Shown: positions 318-10,700 of the stretch, piece by piece
Layout: every line of letters starts with the position of its first letter
Numbering within the stretch: position 1 is the first letter of the stretch
IMG/VR virus record: IMGVR_UViG_3300043429_000169
Location: 1 to 24,771 of that record
Strand: one strand, 5' to 3'
Origin: a virus
DNA: 24,771 bases
Position numbers and translations under genes: made by a program
Notes under the pieces: generated by a model
Seen by the model: the letters and a program-made list of their open reading frames with translations, nothing else
Database searches by the model: none
Told to the model about the DNA's origin: nothing

Positions 318-2468
318 TTATGCCACCACTATTTTTGCGTAAAGAGCAACTCCGCCAGGTAGGGAACCTGTTGGAGAAAACCTACGTCTAGTTCCAAGTG
401 TGTCTGGTCCTAGTCCATTTACCCAAGCTGAGCCATCCCAATACTGGAAGTTACCGTTAGTAGACCCAGTGCTAGCTTGTGTTAGTACTAGGGCATCCGT
501 GTCTGCTCTATAAATATTTATAGTATGTGTAGTTAGAGCTGCTCCGAATAAAGCTTTTTGAATCCACGCAAATATCCCTGTAGAAGTTGAGAAGTCTGCG
601 TCATTCCACCTATACTGAGAAGGCAAGTCATCAGTAGTTTCATAAAGAAGTGCTAATGATAATATACGCGCAGGAAGCATAATTACTCCAGCTGTTCTGA
701 ACTGGAACGCAAATTGTATGTTCGCCGCTGGAAGGACGCCGGAGAGATCGCCACTTTGCGGAACGTCAGCCCACGCACCGGTGTTGTCGTCGATCCCAGA
801 GGTCCGATACTGGACCCTATACGCATCCGGGGTAATGCCCATCGTGTGGTCGCCAATGTTCTCCACGCAGTTAGCGAGGACCCGGTAGAGCTTGGCGGGC
901 GTGCCTCCAAGGCTGATCTTCGGGCAGATGATGCGATTGTTCACCTCCGCCTGAAAGTCGAGGTCGGCGGCGAGCGGGTACGCGGTCAAGGCATTGGCGG
1001 TTGTGGTTGTAGCGCCGCTATACAGCCAGAATAGCCAGCCATCTTCGACCCAGACGAACGGCACCGAGGAGCCGTTGAGCGAGTGCACCCAGACAGGGCT
1101 GTCCGTGTCGCGCAGCGACGACGGAAGCTGGCTCGCGGCGCACATGGCGCGGCGATCGAACTGCTGCCCGCCCGTGTAGTAGTCGGTGACGTAGAGCGAC
1201 GTGCTCTGGCCCGACGTGGTCACGATGACGAGCTTGTCGAGCGATCCGGCGACGTCCAGCGAGGTGAACGGCGTCGAGCCGCTGGCCGAGTTGGTGTTCG
1301 TGCCGCCCGGCGGCACCTCGGACATCGAATCAGCGACGAACGTGGTGCTCGCCGCGACGATGGCCGAGAGTGGTACGCGAAGGATGCGGGTAGTCGTGAA
1401 CAGATACAGGGATGGCACCGAAGCGCCCGGGCCGTGGTTGAGGGTCGCCACGCGGCCGTTGTTCGACTGCAACACGTTGCCCGCCACGGTCTGCGCGCCG
1501 GTAATGACCATGTTCGAACCCGTCAGCACCATCGCGCCAGCGGTCAGGGTCAGCGGAGCGCGGATGTTATAGCGATAAATGTTCAGGGAGGTTGATGTGC
1601 CGTTGGTCGAATAGACGTATTGCTCCGTCCACGAAGTCCAGTCACCCAGCGCACAGCCGCCAATGGTGGTGTTGGTGATCGTGGCGGCGTCTTTCAGCCA
1701 GTAAGTGGCCTTGATCTTGTCCACCGTGGTCGCCGCCGGGATGGCGGTCGCGGGGTTCTGGAAGTCCTCGTAGCGAAGGCCCTTCGTGATGAACAGGCCC
1801 CCGTTGCCCGCCGTGGCGTTTGTCGTGGCCTGAACGATCATCAGGTCTTGGATGACGTAAGCCGTGCCCGCCGAGATGGTGCCCGCCGAGGAAGTCAGCG
1901 TGATGGACGTATCCGAGCCGATGGCGCTGATTTGATACCAAGTCGTGATCTGCGTCGGATCGGTCGAACCGAAGCCAATGCGCGAGCCGACAGATAGACC
2001 CGTCGTCCACGAAGTGTCAGAGCCCGTAACGCCGGTGCCAGAGACCGCGACCGTGCCGGTCGTGTAGTTCTCCAGGATCGCTCGAATGCCCCGGACCGTG
2101 TGCACGGTAGCCGTCGGAAAGGTCAATGTGACCGCACCAACGAGATTGTAGGTGTTGGTCGAGGGAACCCACGTCCAAAGCTGCACCCGGCGGGTAGCGG
2201 CAGCAGTCGCAACATCCGAGCCAAAAACCCAAAATAGGTCATCCGAAATTTTCAACGGATGGACGAACCCGGACGGAATTGCCAGCGAGCTTTCACCAAA
2301 GTTGGCCACGCCCAGGGGCGCTGGACCAATGAACTTGTCGATGTCGCCGCTTCCGAGATTGAACTGCCCGGTGTGCTTGCCGCGATTTATCTTTGTAGAA
2401 TCATAAGCACCACCAATTGCTACTTGTGCTAATGACCCATTAAATACTTGTTCAATAGCTACTTTCAT
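318..2468 (-). CDS. Large tail fibre / receptor-binding candidate with a foreign G+C-rich core
   Basis: This 716-aa protein is rich in Thr, Ser, Ala and Gly and has no signal peptide. Its tandem beta-strand-like segments are typical of phage fibre or beta-propeller-like virion proteins. Residues about 140-210 resemble the small 'GD/GS-xV' beta modules inserted in other tail proteins of this window. Start: ATG at 2468 abuts the stop of the 57-aa gene and has a GGAGGA site. The striking feature is composition. Roughly the first 28 codons and the last 130 codons match the A+T-rich phage backbone. The middle, about 2385 down to 715, is about 60-67% G+C with codons ending in G or C. The frame stays open across both junctions. 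I read it as a mosaic host-recognition protein whose middle was exchanged in frame. A non-fibre structural role remains possible. Confidence 0.75.
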   Translation of the reverse strand: MKVAIEQVFNGSLAQVAIGGAYDSTKINRGKHTGQFNLGSGDIDKFIGPAPLGVANFGESSLAIPSGFVHPLKISDDLFWVFGSDVATAAATRRVQLWTWVPSTNTYNLVGAVTLTFPTATVHTVRGIRAILENYTTGTVAVSGTGVTGSDTSWTTGLSVGSRIGFGSTDPTQITTWYQISAIGSDTSITLTSSAGTISAGTAYVIQDLMIVQATTNATAGNGGLFITKGLRYEDFQNPATAIPAATTVDKIKATYWLKDAATITNTTIGGCALGDWTSWTEQYVYSTNGTSTSLNIYRYNIRAPLTLTAGAMVLTGSNMVITGAQTVAGNVLQSNNGRVATLNHGPGASVPSLYLFTTTRILRVPLSAIVAASTTFVADSMSEVPPGGTNTNSASGSTPFTSLDVAGSLDKLVIVTTSGQSTSLYVTDYYTGGQQFDRRAMCAASQLPSSLRDTDSPVWVHSLNGSSVPFVWVEDGWLFWLYSGATTTTANALTAYPLAADLDFQAEVNNRIICPKISLGGTPAKLYRVLANCVENIGDHTMGITPDAYRVQYRTSGIDDNTGAWADVPQSGDLSGVLPAANIQFAFQFRTAGVIMLPARILSLALLYETTDDLPSQYRWNDADFSTSTGIFAWIQKALFGAALTTHTINIYRADTDALVLTQASTGSTNGNFQYWDGSAWVNGLGPDTLGTRRRFSPTGSLPGGVALYAKIVVA
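715..2385. other. G+C-rich, CTAG-free foreign segment inside the fibre gene
   Basis: Base composition changes abruptly near 715 and near 2385. As a sample, 1201-1260 is 40/60 G+C, whereas 541-600 in the same gene is 26/60. The tetranucleotide CTAG occurs about nine times in 1-720 and I see none in 720-2380. No transposase, terminal inverted repeats or target duplication are visible, and the reading frame continues through both edges. This fits homologous or illegitimate recombination with a G+C-rich phage or host rather than a mobile element. Junction positions are estimates good to about 15 bases. Confidence 0.8.
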
Positions 2469-2642
2469 TTAAAATTCCTCCATTCCTACCACGGTTCCAG
2501 CTAAGAACATACAAGTAGCTTCCTCACAGTCATAACATATGACTTTACATAGTACAAAATCTAAAGGCTCGAAAGTGCCTCCTACGGCTACCTCATATTG
2601 AGGCGCGAACATTACAATATCGCCAGCATTAATTTCTAACAT
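2469..2642 (-). CDS. 57-aa Cys-rich small protein between two fibre genes
   Basis: This 57-codon frame starts at ATG 2642-2640, which overlaps the TAA of the collagen-like gene by one base (TAATG). It ends in TAA at 2471-2469, directly against the ATG of the 716-aa gene. It thus exactly fills a gap that would otherwise be non-coding. The protein begins [20 protein letters not shown], then carries four cysteines in its second half (LCKVICYDCEEATC), followed by a short hydrophobic stretch and an acidic end. There is no obvious Shine-Dalgarno site, so translation is probably coupled to the upstream stop. The four closely spaced cysteines could bind a metal, but spacing matches no family I recognise. 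The exact fit, coupled start and downstream ribosome site inside its last codons support a real gene. Function is unknown, perhaps a fibre accessory protein. Confidence 0.75.
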   Translation of the reverse strand: MLEINAGDIVMFAPQYEVAVGGTFEPLDFVLCKVICYDCEEATCMFLAGTVVGMEEF

Positions 2643-3721
2643 TAGATTATCACGTACATAGTATTAGAATACTTAGTAGCTGCGTCATACTCTCCTTGAC
2701 TGCATTGAATTATGTTTACAATATTATCACTTCCGGCTACCGGAGTAGTATTACTACTAATTTTATCACTAGCAGCTATTCTAGCATCTATATTGGAGTC
2801 ACTTTGTGCGGGACCCGTAGCTCCTGTAGGGCCTATAGGACCTGCGGGGCCTGCTGAACCTGTTGGACCTGTTGGGCCTGTTAACCCTGTTGGACCAGCT
2901 ACTCCAGTAGCACCTGTTGGACCATCAGGACCAGCGGGTCCTGTAGGGCCTGTAATACCTGTAGCCCCTTGAACTCCTGTAGGACCTGTAGGTCCCGCTG
3001 GGCCTGTTGGGCCCGCTGGACCTGTTGGACCTGTTAATCCTGTTGGGCCTGTGGGTCCTGCTATACCAGTTGCTCCTGCTGGGCCAGTAGGCCCTGCAGG
3101 ACCTGCTGGACCTGTTGGACCGGCTGATCCTGTGGGACCTGCAATACCTGTAGCACCCGTTGGGCCTACGGGACCTGTTGGACCTGTTGGACCTGTTAAT
3201 CCTGTCGGGCCTGTTGGGCCCGCTACTCCTGTAGCACCTGTAGGACCTGCAGGACCTGTGGGGCCTGTTAATCCTGTGGGGCCTACAATACCTGTAGCAC
3301 CTGTAGGACCTGCCGCACCCGCTGGGCCAGGAGCCCCTGCTGGACCATCAATTCCCGTAGCACCTGTTGGACCGCTAGGACCTGTTGGGCCGGCGGGACC
3401 TGCTGGTCCACTGGGACCTGCTGGGCCACTAGGACCTGCTAATCCCGTAGCACCTTCTGGACCTGTGGGACCTGAGGGTCCTGCAGCTCCTTCTGGTCCC
3501 ATAGCTCCAGTTGCTCCTATAGGGCCACTAGGTCCAGTTAAACCAGTAGGACCTGCAATACCTGTTGCACCAGTAGCCCCCCCTGGAGACCCCGCAGGAC
3601 CCTCTATACCTGTTGCTCCTGTAGGGCCTGCGGTACCTGCTGGACCAATAGGACCCGTTGCTCCTGCAGGCCCTGGAGGACCAGCCCCGATAGAGGTTTG
3701 TAATTCTAGATGAATTGTCAT
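2642..3721 (-). CDS. Collagen-like trimeric tail fibre protein
   Basis: This 359-aa protein has three parts. A short N-terminal head (about 13 residues) is followed by roughly 95 uninterrupted Gly-X-Y triplets (to about residue 305) and a C-terminal domain of about 54 residues. The triplets are mostly GPT, GPA, GAT and GPS. A higher-order motif GATG(I/V)xGPxG recurs about eleven times. The C-terminal end ([18 protein letters not shown]) matches a motif often found at the tips of phage fibre proteins. Phage collagen-like segments form trimeric rods, so this is probably a fibre shaft with a C-terminal trimerisation or tip domain. The ATG overlaps the TGA of the upstream gene by four bases (ATGA), with GGAGTG upstream. 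Its Gly-Pro-rich coding sequence is internally repetitive, making length change by recombination likely. Confidence 0.9.
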
Positions 3722-4038
3722 CTGGTCACTCCGGGGGTAACTGTAATTTTACCCTCTAGTACTCTTTCTATTTGAGTAGCATTGTAAAGTTCAATATCAT
3801 AAAGGTATATTCCTGGCTCTATATTATCAGATACTGCGGACAGAACTGTTAATAGAAAAGTATTTGTATTTACTACTGAAGTAGCAAATTGAAAACTTAC
3901 AATTCCATTAATAGCTTTTCTAGCATATCCTCGAATACTGTACCCTGTTAAGTCTCTAACCTCCTCATTTGTTTTAAAGCTAAGCTTTAATTTAAAATCG
4001 GAGCCTTGATCTATAACTAGATTATATTTAGTTGCCAT
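3718..4038 (-). CDS. Small beta-rich tail/baseplate accessory protein
   Basis: This 106-aa protein is predicted from its pattern to be all beta. Alternating hydrophobic strands run throughout, with the core motif '[23 protein letters not shown]' region at residues about 75-97 and an ending 'TVTPGVTR'. This pattern (Y-D-I-E followed by R-x-L-x-G-x-I-x-V-x-P-x-V-T-R) resembles the small beta-sandwich domains near the N-terminus of phage baseplate or fibre proteins (BppU-N-like), recalled rather than searched. It overlaps the upstream PAS-protein gene by 11 bases and the collagen gene by 4, so the three are translationally coupled. The start has a close GGAGGG site. A likely role is to attach the collagen-like fibre to the tail tip. 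Confidence 0.7.
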
Positions 4039-4669
4039 CGCCCTCCACTAGTATTCCGGTCCAGGCTACAACTTCATCATTAAATAAAACAGGTATAGCT
4101 CTACATCTACAATGTATAATTACTCCGGCTCGTTCTATTCTATAAGAAGCTTCAAAGATACGTTTTTGCTTAACAGCTAAGTCCCACTCATATCTGATAG
4201 ACTCTAGGTCAGCTCCTAAAATAGGGACTGTCCACCCCCAATTTATTAACTCAATCTTAGGCCTTCCAACTAGTTTTTCGTAGCTTTTAGAAACCCAAGT
4301 ATAAAGTCCATTTGCATCAGTTTCAAAAATAGCTGCATCTTTAGTATCTAGATATTGTGCCATTTTGGACTCTGAAATTCGTTGGTGTTTTTCTAACCTA
4401 TTGACGGCATCCCTTAAAGAAGAGCCTCCATTAGGACTCAACTGAGAAACTATAAAGTCTAGTTTCTCAGCGAGTTTTTCATGGCTTTTTTCTAAATGGG
4501 CAAGCTTTCTGGTTGTTCCATTAAATGGATAAAATAAAGCATTCCATATTCCAATTACCCACTTTCTGGCATTACCAGTGAAGGAGCTACCAAATATTAA
4601 AGCTAAGGCGGTACCCCCGGCTGTTATTAACCCGAGTACTTGACCAATTTGTAATAAGATTTGTTGCAT
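4028..4669 (-). CDS. Membrane-anchored PAS-domain protein in the fibre/lysis region
   Basis: This 213-aa protein has a clear three-part layout. Residues about 8-30 are hydrophobic (VLGLITAGGTALALIFGSSF), followed by a second partly hydrophobic stretch (WVIGIWNALFYPF, about 37-49). Residues about 55-105 are charged, with heptad-like spacing suggesting a coiled coil. Residues about 112-210 resemble a PAS/PAC fold: AIFETDANGLYTWVS, then YEKLVGRPKIELINWGW, then a beta-rich end finishing in an [12 protein letters not shown]-type strand. No kinase, cyclase or other output domain is present. The start is ATG 4669 with AGGA five bases upstream. The location between the tail tip gene and the fibre genes is where many phages place holin-like or exclusion proteins. 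Whether it senses a ligand, acts in lysis or superinfection exclusion, or uses the PAS fold only for assembly is unknown. Confidence 0.75.
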   Translation of the reverse strand: MQQILLQIGQVLGLITAGGTALALIFGSSFTGNARKWVIGIWNALFYPFNGTTRKLAHLEKSHEKLAEKLDFIVSQLSPNGGSSLRDAVNRLEKHQRISESKMAQYLDTKDAAIFETDANGLYTWVSKSYEKLVGRPKIELINWGWTVPILGADLESIRYEWDLAVKQKRIFEASYRIERAGVIIHCRCRAIPVLFNDEVVAWTGILVEGDGN

Positions 4670-4704: not shown

Positions 4705-7700
4705 TTATGTTAGGCTCTCTGTTTTGTTATCGGTAATACGCATAGTAGCTTTATTAATTGTAACATTAACTGTAGAGCTAGTGTAGGGATTGATCTTAGC
4801 TACAATAGAGTATGTGTAGGTTCCTGCCCCTGGCTTTTCTCTAAAGGTAAAAGCCCCAGAAAAATATTGAGAAGCACTACTTAATGCATAAAGTCCAGTA
4901 CTATCAATAAGAACTCCATCCCTATATAGATCAAATTGAACTCCCCAGCTAGGGTTAATTGCACTTACATTTATGTAAGTATCTATATCAATATATCCAG
5001 CACTAACTGTTACTGTTTTAGTTAAAATAGTTGGAGTTGAAAATCCTATAAAATTAACCGAACTGGCTAAAATACTAGTAAAAGTTCTTGTAATACTATC
5101 ACTAACAATATTATTAGCAGTAATAATATTAGCCCCTAAAGTTCCACTAAAATAAGCATTTCCAGCATAGTCAATATAGAACTTTGCGTTGGCATTATTA
5201 ACAGCAGCATTATTTACATCACTATTATAAGGGCCTGCCCACATTAAATATTGTGATAGATTACCAATTCCCCAGCCAGATATTAGCATCTGAGAAAAAT
5301 TAGTAGCCATCCAATAGGGACCTCCTGCACCATTTAAATCAAGTCTAAATGTATTGTCAGAAGCTCTAATAAGGCCTGCGGTAAGAGTTCCCATATCTGC
5401 TTTAATTGTACTTAAACTAGTCACTCCTATCTTTGCAGCTGTTACTGCACCTGCATAAATATTATTAGTTAGAACAGAATCTGCCGCTAGTTGTCCATTT
5501 ACAATTTGACCAGTAAGGTCTGTTGTAGGAACTGCAGTAGTCCATGCGGTTCCATTGTATCTATATAATTTACTATCAGAAGTAAAGTATACCATTCTTC
5601 CGTTAAATAAATTACTTCCTGGAAGAGTATCAACTATCTCGTATCCAGTCTTTGTTTTATTTACTGTAAATACTCTTTGATAATTTATAGAGTTGTATGT
5701 AACTGTAATTGTTAATGTACCAGAGTCTCCAGTTAACCCAGTAACTCTATAATATCCTCTAACTTGTCCAGATACTGGAGTATTATCTGCTGTGTTAACT
5801 GTTCCCGTCAGACCACTAGATGCCGTTGCACTATAACTTGCAGAAGCTGTTACATCAACTCCAGCACTATATACTTTAACAAAACCATCTATGCCCGCCC
5901 AAGAGGGTACATCCCCATTCGCATAGGCAAATACACCTATAGAGTTTTTAGTGAGAGAAATATCTACTGCGCTAGTTCCGTTAGTTCCGTTAGTTCCGTT
6001 GGTTCCCGCAGTACCCGCCCTAGCCTTTGCTAGAGTTTGCACTTTGCGCAGAACTGTACTACCATAGAGTGCTTGATATACTACAGAAGCTGTATCTGCA
6101 GACATAGCTGTTACACTATAAGTACCTGTGCTAATATTGATTACCGGAGTACATCCTGTTGAAGTAACGACAGAGTATACAATCCCATTTCCAACAGAAA
6201 TATCAGTTAATCCCGATAAAACAGCAAATCGACCATCTGCAGGAGTAAAATCTGATACTACACCTGCACTAGTAGCCGCAAGAGTTACAGATTCATTTGT
6301 AAGGTACCCACTAATAGCTCCAGGAGCACCATCAGTAGTTCCTAAAACTGCTGCTGCCGTCCTCAGAGGATGAAAGTCCGAGTAGTTAGCACTACCCGAA
6401 ACAAATACCTTATTTCTAATTCTATAGTATTTACTTACAGCCCCCGTAGAATATACAATATCTGTATACTTAGTTATTGGATATGTAACTGCATTTATTA
6501 GACGTTCTACACCAGCATACAATGTTAGTCCAGAAGCATTTGCTAATGTTACAGCGTTTCCATTAACATCCTTAAGGGAGAATGTATTTAACCCAGTTGG
6601 AACAGCTAAATAAGTTACTCCAGTGGTTATTCCGCTTGTACTAGTAAAGAACACAATAGGATCATCTAAAGTTAATCCATGCGCTGTACTAGTTAGAACA
6701 CTTGAAGATATAGCGGTAACTAGTAGGTCTTTACCAGCACTGTATATTTCTATATCCGTGCCGCTTGGAGTAGCTGTTGTGCTATTATCCCAAGTTAAAT
6801 TTATTGTTACACTTGTATCATCAGAATCTGCAACTTGTGTAGCCGACAGATTTGTTGGAGCATTAATCGAAGCTGTTACAGGGTTGCCACTTAGGCCCGT
6901 TCCTTCTTGCTTTGCAACGTTGCTAATGGCATATAACTTATCGTCATATTCTCTAGCTACGATATCTACTAAGCAGTCTTCTGCAATTGTCATAGACTCG
7001 ATACGGAACTTCTTATTTACCCAGCCATACCTGCTATACTGAATCTGTATAACCTGCCCCGGAATTAGTAACATACCTCTAGGCGCTAGAGTTACATTAA
7101 TAGTTAGTCCATATCTTGACTTATTTAGGTACTTGTCAGCTAAAAGTCTAGCATTGTAGTAGTTAGTAATACCTGGAATAGATAGGTTCCCCTTTCTTGG
7201 GACATTTCTATCCGCCTTCAGGTAGTCTGAATTAAAGAAACTAATATTTCTTGCTTCAAACTTATTACTTGGATCAGCATACGAGACCGAAAGTGAGTTA
7301 TAAGAACTTCTAATACCTTCGTCTGTTAAGCTAATCTTTCCTACAATATGATCTTCTGTAATATTGTAAGGTTCTGAGTCAGATGTACTGATTGAACCTA
7401 CTTGTGCTTCTACGTCTAAGAAATACTTTCCGCCACTATAACGAAGCATTCCGCCAAAGTGAGATAGAATAGAGTTAATATTATCAAAGACAGACGCCGA
7501 AGTATCAATTAATAGATTTCCTTGGTGCTTGGTAACATAACGCTGATCTGCAGAGTCCCACCCTAGGTATCTCCAGTAATCCACGCCATCTGAGTCATAT
7601 AGAGAGTAACCCGAAGCTAGTCTACCATTCTTTACTGCTTGAACTGGGTTTCCAGTGTAGAATAGAGCTAAAGTAGCGGAACCGCTTCCAGTTACTTTAG

Positions 7701-10700
7701 TTAATGTACAGCTGCTCTGATAAATTAAATTACCTACAGTGCCACTCGTATGTGTAGGAGCCGTTGCACTAGGAGCGTATCCGGAAGCAGCTTTATATAG
7801 GTTATTTCCGTAGTGTACTAACTCTCCCTCTGCAAAAGTTTTCCAGCTATTCCAAGCGTTTGTTAATTTACCAAGTATATTAGTAAAGGTAACAAATGCG
7901 GTTGAAGCTCCTGGTACAGTGCTAGTATAACTAGAAGCTACCGTTCCTTGCCATATAATACTTCCCGCTGTATTCGTAAACTTATATACATCGCCTACGG
8001 AAGGTGCGGAACCACTTGCTAAACGAACTGTTACGTCTGATTGAACGTCACAGTCTCTAGCTGCTTGCATCCAAGAGGGAAGATCAATATCATTAGTTAC
8101 TGACAGCCCTCTACCATAAGTAGGAGAAGTAATATAGTCTAGCGCTTGAATAGCAAAGTTATTACTAACCCTGTGGTCGATATAAGCCTGAGTAATTACA
8201 TAAGTATCAGTTGTTGTTGGAATTGAATTTGCGTCCCATACACCATCAATAGTAGCAATTCTACTTGCACCATCGTAATCAATAATACTCTTTTGTTGTA
8301 CTATCTGCTTCCCTGTTGTGCTGCTAGTTCTAGTAACTGTGATCTTAGCCCCATTGTAGTAGTCATTTACTGAACTTGCACTACTATGTAGCTTAATTGT
8401 GTTTCTAGAAACTAACTTGTTTCCACTAATGGCTGCGTTTGCATATACAGAAGAAGTTGCATAGGAAATTTCAGTAGTTAGGCTACTTGAAGTATCTACA
8501 CCTGAAAGAATAGCGGAGCCAAAACGCTCATTACTAATTAAGCCCGATGCGTTGGTTAAAATACTAAACTTTGGTGATTGCTCATAAATGTCGCCTCCGA
8601 CATTCATATTAGCATTTGCAGTAAAGTTAAATACTAACTTACCTGCCCCATTTGAAGCCGACGTTAATGGAGAACTAATCTCAGCGGACACTTGTCCTGT
8701 ATGCTCACTGTGATTATATGTTACCATTGTCCAGGTATTTACACCGCTCTTTAAGTAGAACTTTGTAATAGTTGGAACACCATTTACGTAACCTAGTGCA
8801 GGTACGGCGCTTAATCTAAAGCGTACATTTGCAGTACCATCGGGATTGTAGAAAGTCCACTTATCTATAATCTGGACACTAGAGTTAATTATAGTATTAG
8901 TGTCTGATCTATAAACATCTACGATATCGCCCAGCTTAAAGTTAGCTGCATTTTCACCGGTTGTCTTATTGTGGTGGCTGTAGCTATAATCATAATTATA
9001 GCAAGGTAAAACCTTACCATTTACGATAAACTCTAATTCAGGAATACTAGTTTCACCCTCTGCAATAGTATAGTTTACTACCACATAGGCGGTGTCTAAC
9101 ATACGGTGATTTGGACCCCAATATTCGGCTGTATCGGTTCCTGTCCAGTAGTCATTCTGAATTTTGAAGTTTTTAGCCTTAGCAATTTCTACTAGTGACT
9201 GAGCTGCTTTTTGCGCTTCTTTTCCGGAGAAAAAGTCAATAGTAATTGCTTGAGGACTAGTAAGATAGATGGTCTCTCCATCTTTGATTCCGGTTTGTGT
9301 AACAGGAGCCGTTACGATAGGTGCTGTATATCCTAGACTATTAATTTGATCTAGAATATTGTAACCAAAGTCGTATAGATAAGACTCATTAGCATAGTAA
9401 GAAGTTACTGTATAATCAATAGCAACACTTCCTCCTAGTACATCACCGCGATCCGCGCGACCCATACATACTAGTGATACGGTATTGTCGGGATTTTGCT
9501 GGCTTCTAGCATCAAAATCTGCTTTATTGTTACAGATTAACGAGTTACCTTCTATATATACATCATAGATACTACCAATCTCACCTTCAGATAGTGCATA
9601 TACAACGTATACCGAGGCTGAGTTATCATTTAGAGTATCAGCAAAAACCGGAATACCAGTGACTGGTCTAACTCCATAGACTACTGGAATGCTCTTGGCT
9701 TGCAGCTGGAAGTCAAGATTGGTACTACGCTCCTCGGGAGCTTTATACTTGCGAACCTTAACTTTTGAGCCAATTCCCAGGAAGCCTTTTTTAACTGAAA
9801 TATCTTGCTTATCTACCAGTACCGTGTACTTCGCTAGTAGATTGATTGAGGTTTCTGCGTGTGCAAATCCCTTGTCGTAAGCGTATAGAGGCTTTAATGA
9901 TGATAACGGATTTGGGTTACCGTTCTCATCAAGAGCACGGTGAAAGTCATCGCTAGTAATACGACCAGCAATTTGAGCCCAATCTCCCCAATGGCTAGTC
10001 AGCCCCCACGATACCTTTACTAGGCTATCGCTATCTTCAAAGCTAGTGTTACTTACTAGACCTTTGAAGATAAGTACTGGAGTACCAACAATAGTTCCGT
10101 TTTGAAAGAATGCCTTCCATACGTATACTTCTCTGTTAAGAAATGACGAATATTCAGAGGCATTCTTATCTAGGAGGATGCTCTTGATTTCTTCTGAGCT
10201 TAGGCTCATAGTAATTGATACGTTGCTCTGCGCTGTCGACAGTGTAGTATCAATTTTACCTATTCTAAGAGTGTTGTTTGCACGGAAACCAATAATATTA
10301 TAGTCTCCAGGTTCAGCAATTCCTGTAATAGTTACTTTGTCTCCTTCACGGAAACCTGCATCTATAAGATCAGCTGTAAATACAACGTCATAAACCCCAG
10401 TAGATACTACTGAGGTTGTTACTACATCCGATACCTGGGCTCCAATTGCTGTTCCATCAAGCTCTAGAGTATAGGTACTGGCTACTGCTTCGATTTCTTC
10501 ACTAATAGGGCTGACTCTTAGCACTTTATTTGCTATATAAGTCTGGGCCCCATTAGTTAAACCACTAAGATTTGTAGAGCCATCATCAAAACTTACATCA
10601 ATAGAAGCGTCACTAATATAAGTATAACGCTCTTTAGAAGTACTAACCTTACCTGTTACTGAGTCTGGACGTGAAGGTCTTTCAAACTTCACTAAGTGGC

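Follow-up and report, generated by a model that had tools for sequence, protein, structure and literature searches.

Evidence for in-frame, probably homeologous exchange of the core of a predicted beta-propeller gene in a putatively T5-like phage

Introduction

How does a gene come to have ends in the base composition of its own genome and a centre in that of a quite different one? This question is raised by the DNA analysed here, a stretch of 24,771 nucleotides (hereafter the window; positions 1 to 24,771 of IMG/VR virus record IMGVR_UViG_3300043429_000169), in which a gene on the minus strand (318-2468) encodes a predicted beta-propeller protein of tail-fibre type, described from its reading frame, an AlphaFold model and PHROG matches. 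The tail fibres and tailspikes of tailed phages are domain mosaics, in which a conserved end is kept and the distal or central part is recombined. Here we report on the composition of this gene, its relatives, its neighbourhood and its predicted fold.

Results

The reading frame at 318-2468 is intact, encodes 716 aa and stays open across both composition junctions. The G+C content per 300 bases is 0.43-0.48 at the 3' end of the gene, 0.56-0.68 over about 750-2400 and 0.38-0.46 upstream, the gene ends and the flanking DNA being A+T-rich. The third-position G+C (GC3) rises from 0.11 in codons 1-28 to 0.80 in codons 29-590 and falls to 0.26 beyond, and a three-segment fit to it places the change-points at codons 29 and ~583-590 (lnL gain 87; 2-lnL intervals of codons 26-30 and 566-591), which gives a core reaching from 2384 to about 699-771 of the window. 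By base-level comparison with the sister phage described below (L006) and with G+C-rich relatives, the 3' junction was narrowed to ~710-735, and near position 720 the native sequence takes over from the donor-like CGGCGAACAT in the alignment. The tetranucleotide CTAG occurs 189 times in the remainder of the window, 4 times in the gene ends and not once in the core, where ~14 would be expected at the window's density. The sharp contrast, the open frame and the CTAG-free core on which an earlier note on this DNA had built are thus confirmed by the sliding G+C, the GC3 fit and the CTAG count. Its boundaries of 715 and 2385 also hold to within ~20 bases, given the fit and the narrowed 3' junction. 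The gene, all on the minus strand, consists accordingly of a native A+T-rich 5' end (codons 1-28, 2386-2468), a foreign G+C-rich core (codons ~29-583, 715-2385, recognised by GC3, trees and DNA identity to the phage L003) and a native A+T-rich 3' end (318-714).

Relatives were collected from IMG/VR, where a single-protein query returned 58 loci and an alignment query 137 matching stretches, the latter extending to contigs of 374-479 kb. Best-segment identity to the window protein was 67-86% in 57 of the 58 loci and 41% in one. In the 74 copies with enough flank, the G+C of the gene tracks that of its carrier (r 0.945), and the window is the largest outlier from this relation, with L006 the second. 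The difference between core and ends is 0.20 in the window and 0.21 in L006, whereas the other copies (~75) give -0.006 ± 0.027 with a maximum of 0.070; for GC3 the window reaches 0.573 against -0.016 ± 0.060 in the others, with a maximum of 0.136. The contrast is peculiar to the window and L006 among ~77 copies, some of which represent one phage in several samples, so that the independent comparisons are fewer, and none of which approaches the window.

The core and the ends of the gene have different nearest relatives. In the tree of the core the window joins L002 (98), a phage of 68% G+C, and next L005 (99), within phages of 68-70% G+C, and in the tree of the ends it joins L006 (98). The AU test rejected the grouping of the ends with L002 (p 0.0009) and, narrowly, that of the core with L006 (p 0.0425). 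At the DNA level the core groups with the G+C-rich phages L001-L004, with up to 99% identity over 60 codons. Gene nucleotides 1021-1500 are 92-100% identical to L003 and 88-100% to L001, nucleotides 901-960 are 97% identical to L052, a phage of 58% G+C, and the core blocks near the 3' junction are only 65-77% identical to L001 and L003. Since the best relatives differ along the core, the core, judged by these alignments, is a patchwork in its own right; its exact donor is absent from the IMG/VR relatives collected.

The sister phage L006 lies in a 71-kb record and has its backbone in common with the window (91% DNA identity over window 5487-8295); it was the only sibling of this backbone found. 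The DNA flanking the gene is 90% identical directly upstream and 97% directly downstream, and the gene ends are 99% (5') and 92% (3') identical, the first 68 nt being the same in both phages and the 92% applying to codons 585-716, against 0.57-0.69 in blocks compared with L001 and L003. The core of L006 is also G+C-rich, yet it is only 72% identical to that of the window, and the junctions are not nested: codons 24-27 are A+T-rich in the window and G+C-rich in L006, whereas codons ~548-580 are native in L006 and of donor type in the window. Among the relatives, L006 alone shows this composition along its entire gene, and since its core is a different one, it supports exchange rather than refuting it. 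Neither allele can be reached from the other by one more replacement, and at least two exchange tracts, each with an A+T-rich allele, would therefore be the simplest account of the two cores. One old exchange in the common ancestor, followed by core-to-core and end reshuffling, would explain why G+C-rich cores stand at nearly the same place in both sisters. This account appears less likely: the two cores group apart, and the native codons kept by one sister (24-27 in the window, ~548-580 in L006) are of donor type in its counterpart, which requires renewed involvement of an A+T-rich allele.

The earlier note had proposed that the core was acquired recently and in frame from a phage or host with a base composition far from that of the backbone, the ends being kept; such an acquisition, with phages as the source, is borne out by the separate trees, the near-identical donor stretch and L006. 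Its main competing explanation had been an assembly chimera, in which the ends of one phage's gene are joined to the core of another's homologue from the same sample. Homologues of very different G+C are common in such samples, but the architecture recurs in a separate record (L006), where the core and the junctions are others, the reading frame runs through both junctions of the window gene, and the exact words shared with G+C-rich loci across the switch points measure at most 12 bases on the 5' side and 15 on the 3' side. The L006 record and the shortness of these words largely remove the chimera, which we consider very unlikely.

Exchange within this gene is found again in other members of the family. 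L003 and L027, with flanks of 90-94% identity and the first ~49 codons identical, are at 72% in codons 50-536 with their G+C unchanged; because of such trade at equal G+C, composition scans catch only part of it. L050 and L063 differ in codons 108-250, and L041 and L044 have an identical 49-codon tract inside a gene otherwise ~75% identical, in both pairs between related flanks and again at unchanged G+C. The propeller genes of L017 and L021 are 99-100% identical with flanking DNA at 73%, suggesting a recent whole-gene transfer. Intragenic exchange in this gene is real and recurrent; of the single event proposed in the earlier note the exchange stands, and the notion of one event gives way to exchange recurring in a widely common gene family, phages of equal G+C included. 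As the breakpoints differ between pairs, a fixed cassette system fits less well than homeologous recombination of a general kind, which is probably the route. A dedicated diversity system, either a site-specific cassette or a retroelement, would account for the recurrence in one gene. It is nevertheless hardly credible, in view of the varying breakpoints, of an exchanged tract of 1.6 kb whose differences fall on all bases, unlike the product of a diversity-generating retroelement, and of near-identical stretches lying in other phages. An exact domain-for-domain exchange was considered as well and rejected: the 3' junctions fall inside a predicted beta-sandwich stretch, and the breakpoints vary.

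The AlphaFold model of the 716-aa protein, a confident one (pLDDT 83, pTM 0.77), predicts a beta-propeller in residues 49-500 (Z up to 19.6 in fold comparison). An inserted stretch at ~135-220, and only that region, is similar to the beginning of two tail fibre families of PHROG, while the beta-rich residues 500-716 have weak fold matches (Z up to 6.6). No domain was found in the gene by Pfam search and no match by PDB profile search. The most likely role, at moderate confidence, is that of a tail-fibre-type surface binder, whose ends would hold it to the virion and whose core would recognise the host. The main alternative, possible if doubtful, is that the propeller is an enzyme acting on extracellular polymer or else a part that binds particles in general. 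The endosialidases of phages phi92 (Z 18.0) and K1F (Z 17.6) are among the fold matches, and the conservation of the protein (57 of 58 loci, as above) is unusual for phages with such different genomes. However, the endosialidases are 7-8% identical to it, and many unrelated propellers match the predicted fold equally well or better, so that the fold is uninformative on activity.

The neighbouring genes, also on the minus strand, place the putative surface binder in a tail gene cluster. Directly downstream lies a 96-aa ORF (26-316) of cluster c1, and directly upstream a 57-aa ORF (2469-2642) with similar ORFs in relatives; both are part of a common gene set, in which an ORF of ~100 aa often follows the propeller gene (c1, 35 loci including the window) and ORFs of ~55-83 aa precede it in roughly one of two loci examined with a full gene start. 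Further upstream are a collagen-like fibre protein of 359 aa (2642-3721; PF01391, E 7e-44) with a counterpart in L006, and an adaptor of 106 aa of the LtfC or L-shaped tail fibre assembly type (3718-4038; phrog_1084, E 2e-21; phrog_3304, E 1e-10). This adaptor type is found in 82 phage records, mostly cyanophages, some of them annotated as L-shaped tail fiber protein assembly. The collagen-like gene is also G+C-rich (~0.6), in L006 too, because of its Gly-X-Y codons. At 4028-4669, within the tail gene cluster, a protein of 213 aa, 95% identical in L006, combines what looks like a membrane segment at its N-terminus with a PAS-like domain just below cut-off (PF00989, E 2.6e-4), a sensor-type domain that is odd in such a place.

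Upstream of the gene set, the window shares with several other phages an adaptor of ~110 aa and a protein that is fibre-like or collagen-like. Gene cluster c0 is present in 57 loci and cluster c1 in 35, with further neighbours seldom in common, and the same gene set is found on phages with otherwise unrelated flanks, as a horizontally shared module would be. The carriers range from 29 to 74% G+C, with different kinds of tail sheath, baseplate hub and terminase genes near the set, and the family has more than 130 matching stretches in IMG/VR. Among 50,697 phage records, the window gene had no match at E 1e-5 and its relative L016 none at 0.01, and none of the cultured phages searched carries the gene.

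The backbone of the window appears to be distantly T5-like, from matches that are all remote: the capsid protein is 36-38% identical to T5-like phages over ~70% of its length, a pb3/J-type protein 27-32% over ~40%, and the domains of a pb9-like distal tail protein fall below the Pfam cut-off. The sister genome (L127 4246-12803) has 26 tRNA genes, which together serve all 20 amino acids, and an SbcD/SbcC-like pair of which the phosphoesterase passes the Pfam cut-off and the Rad50-like partner falls below it. So many tRNA genes would be of use to an A+T-rich phage if the composition of its host differs from its own, and in such a host it could meet G+C-rich phages. The host jump that the earlier note had suggested is not supported, since L006 is the same phage type on the same backbone with another core. 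The propeller gene is also present in three Roseomonas MAG contigs (L061, L062, L063), in one of which (L061) a baseplate hub gene lies upstream of it, as in a prophage. The search of 200 genomes of the Roseomonas family matched the query genome only; no host follows from this lead, and all that the contigs show is that this group contains members of the gene family.

Discussion

Our preferred reading, to which we give a probability of about 85%, is a homeologous, in-frame exchange of the core in a probable surface-binding propeller gene of a putatively T5-like phage. The gene, standing at the end of the phage's tail-fibre cluster, would encode a virion-associated and probably cell-surface-binding beta-propeller. 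A phage of ~60-70% G+C that carried a homologue would have co-infected the cell, and the two genes would have recombined homeologously where short stretches are conserved, near KINRGKH (5' side) and QFAFQFRTAG (3' side). In this way ~1.67 kb (residues ~29-583) would have been replaced in frame and the native ends left. The phage's own recombination enzymes may have been the means, and selection for changed binding the reason. The phosphoesterase and Rad50-like pair and the 26 tRNAs of the sister count for this reading, as does the place of the gene among tail genes that include the adaptor and the collagen-like fibre. Against it, receptor binders are typically less conserved than the propeller protein, and the reading assumes that phages of 41% and 65-70% G+C can infect one host together.

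One close precedent was found in the literature, and nothing closer: the distantly related Alteromonas phages A5 and V22, which infect one bacterial genus, have a host recognition module in common whose fibre and chaperone were experimentally characterised (PMC10579305). The likeness lies in a tail-fibre-type gene set present across families and morphologies, which implies horizontal transfer and recombination (PMC10579305). Unlike that module, the set described here has carriers of 29-74% G+C, a predicted propeller and no recognised chaperone, and its exchange has breakpoints within the gene. Tail-fibre mosaicism and modules common to different phage families are already known (PMC10579305). 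The window departs from the usual mosaicism in keeping both ends, in a gap of more than 25 G+C points and in the presence of two cores on the same backbone. It resembles T5-like phages, distantly, in its backbone only (capsid, pb3/J-type and pb9-like proteins, and the L-shaped tail fibre assembly adaptor), and differs in carrying the propeller gene, which no cultured T5-like phage among the records searched has. With the endosialidases of phi92 and K1F it has the predicted beta-propeller fold in common, but at 7-8% identity and with other propellers matching as well or better. What is new is an uncultured propeller family spread over carriers of 29-74% G+C, and a recent in-frame internal exchange across more than 25 G+C points that has put two different cores in one backbone.

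We tentatively propose that the beta-propeller gene set travels among many kinds of tailed phages (29-74% G+C) and that the propeller is traded in frame across compositions. If so, one common pool of surface-binding heads would link phages thought to be without shared hosts. Junctions such as these record recent contact between genomes more than 25 G+C points apart and can therefore show which phages share cells. The gene family itself looks like a virion part that many phages have in common.

Two further arrangements were observed among the carriers. In L041 (6001-10332), a phage with a tail sheath, the propeller gene stands in two tandem copies of 712 and 731 aa. In L006 (8449-11579), a second adaptor-like ORF (109 aa) directly follows the propeller set and is itself followed by a 935-aa ORF with a collagen-like beginning, an arrangement that resembles fibre modules in tandem array.
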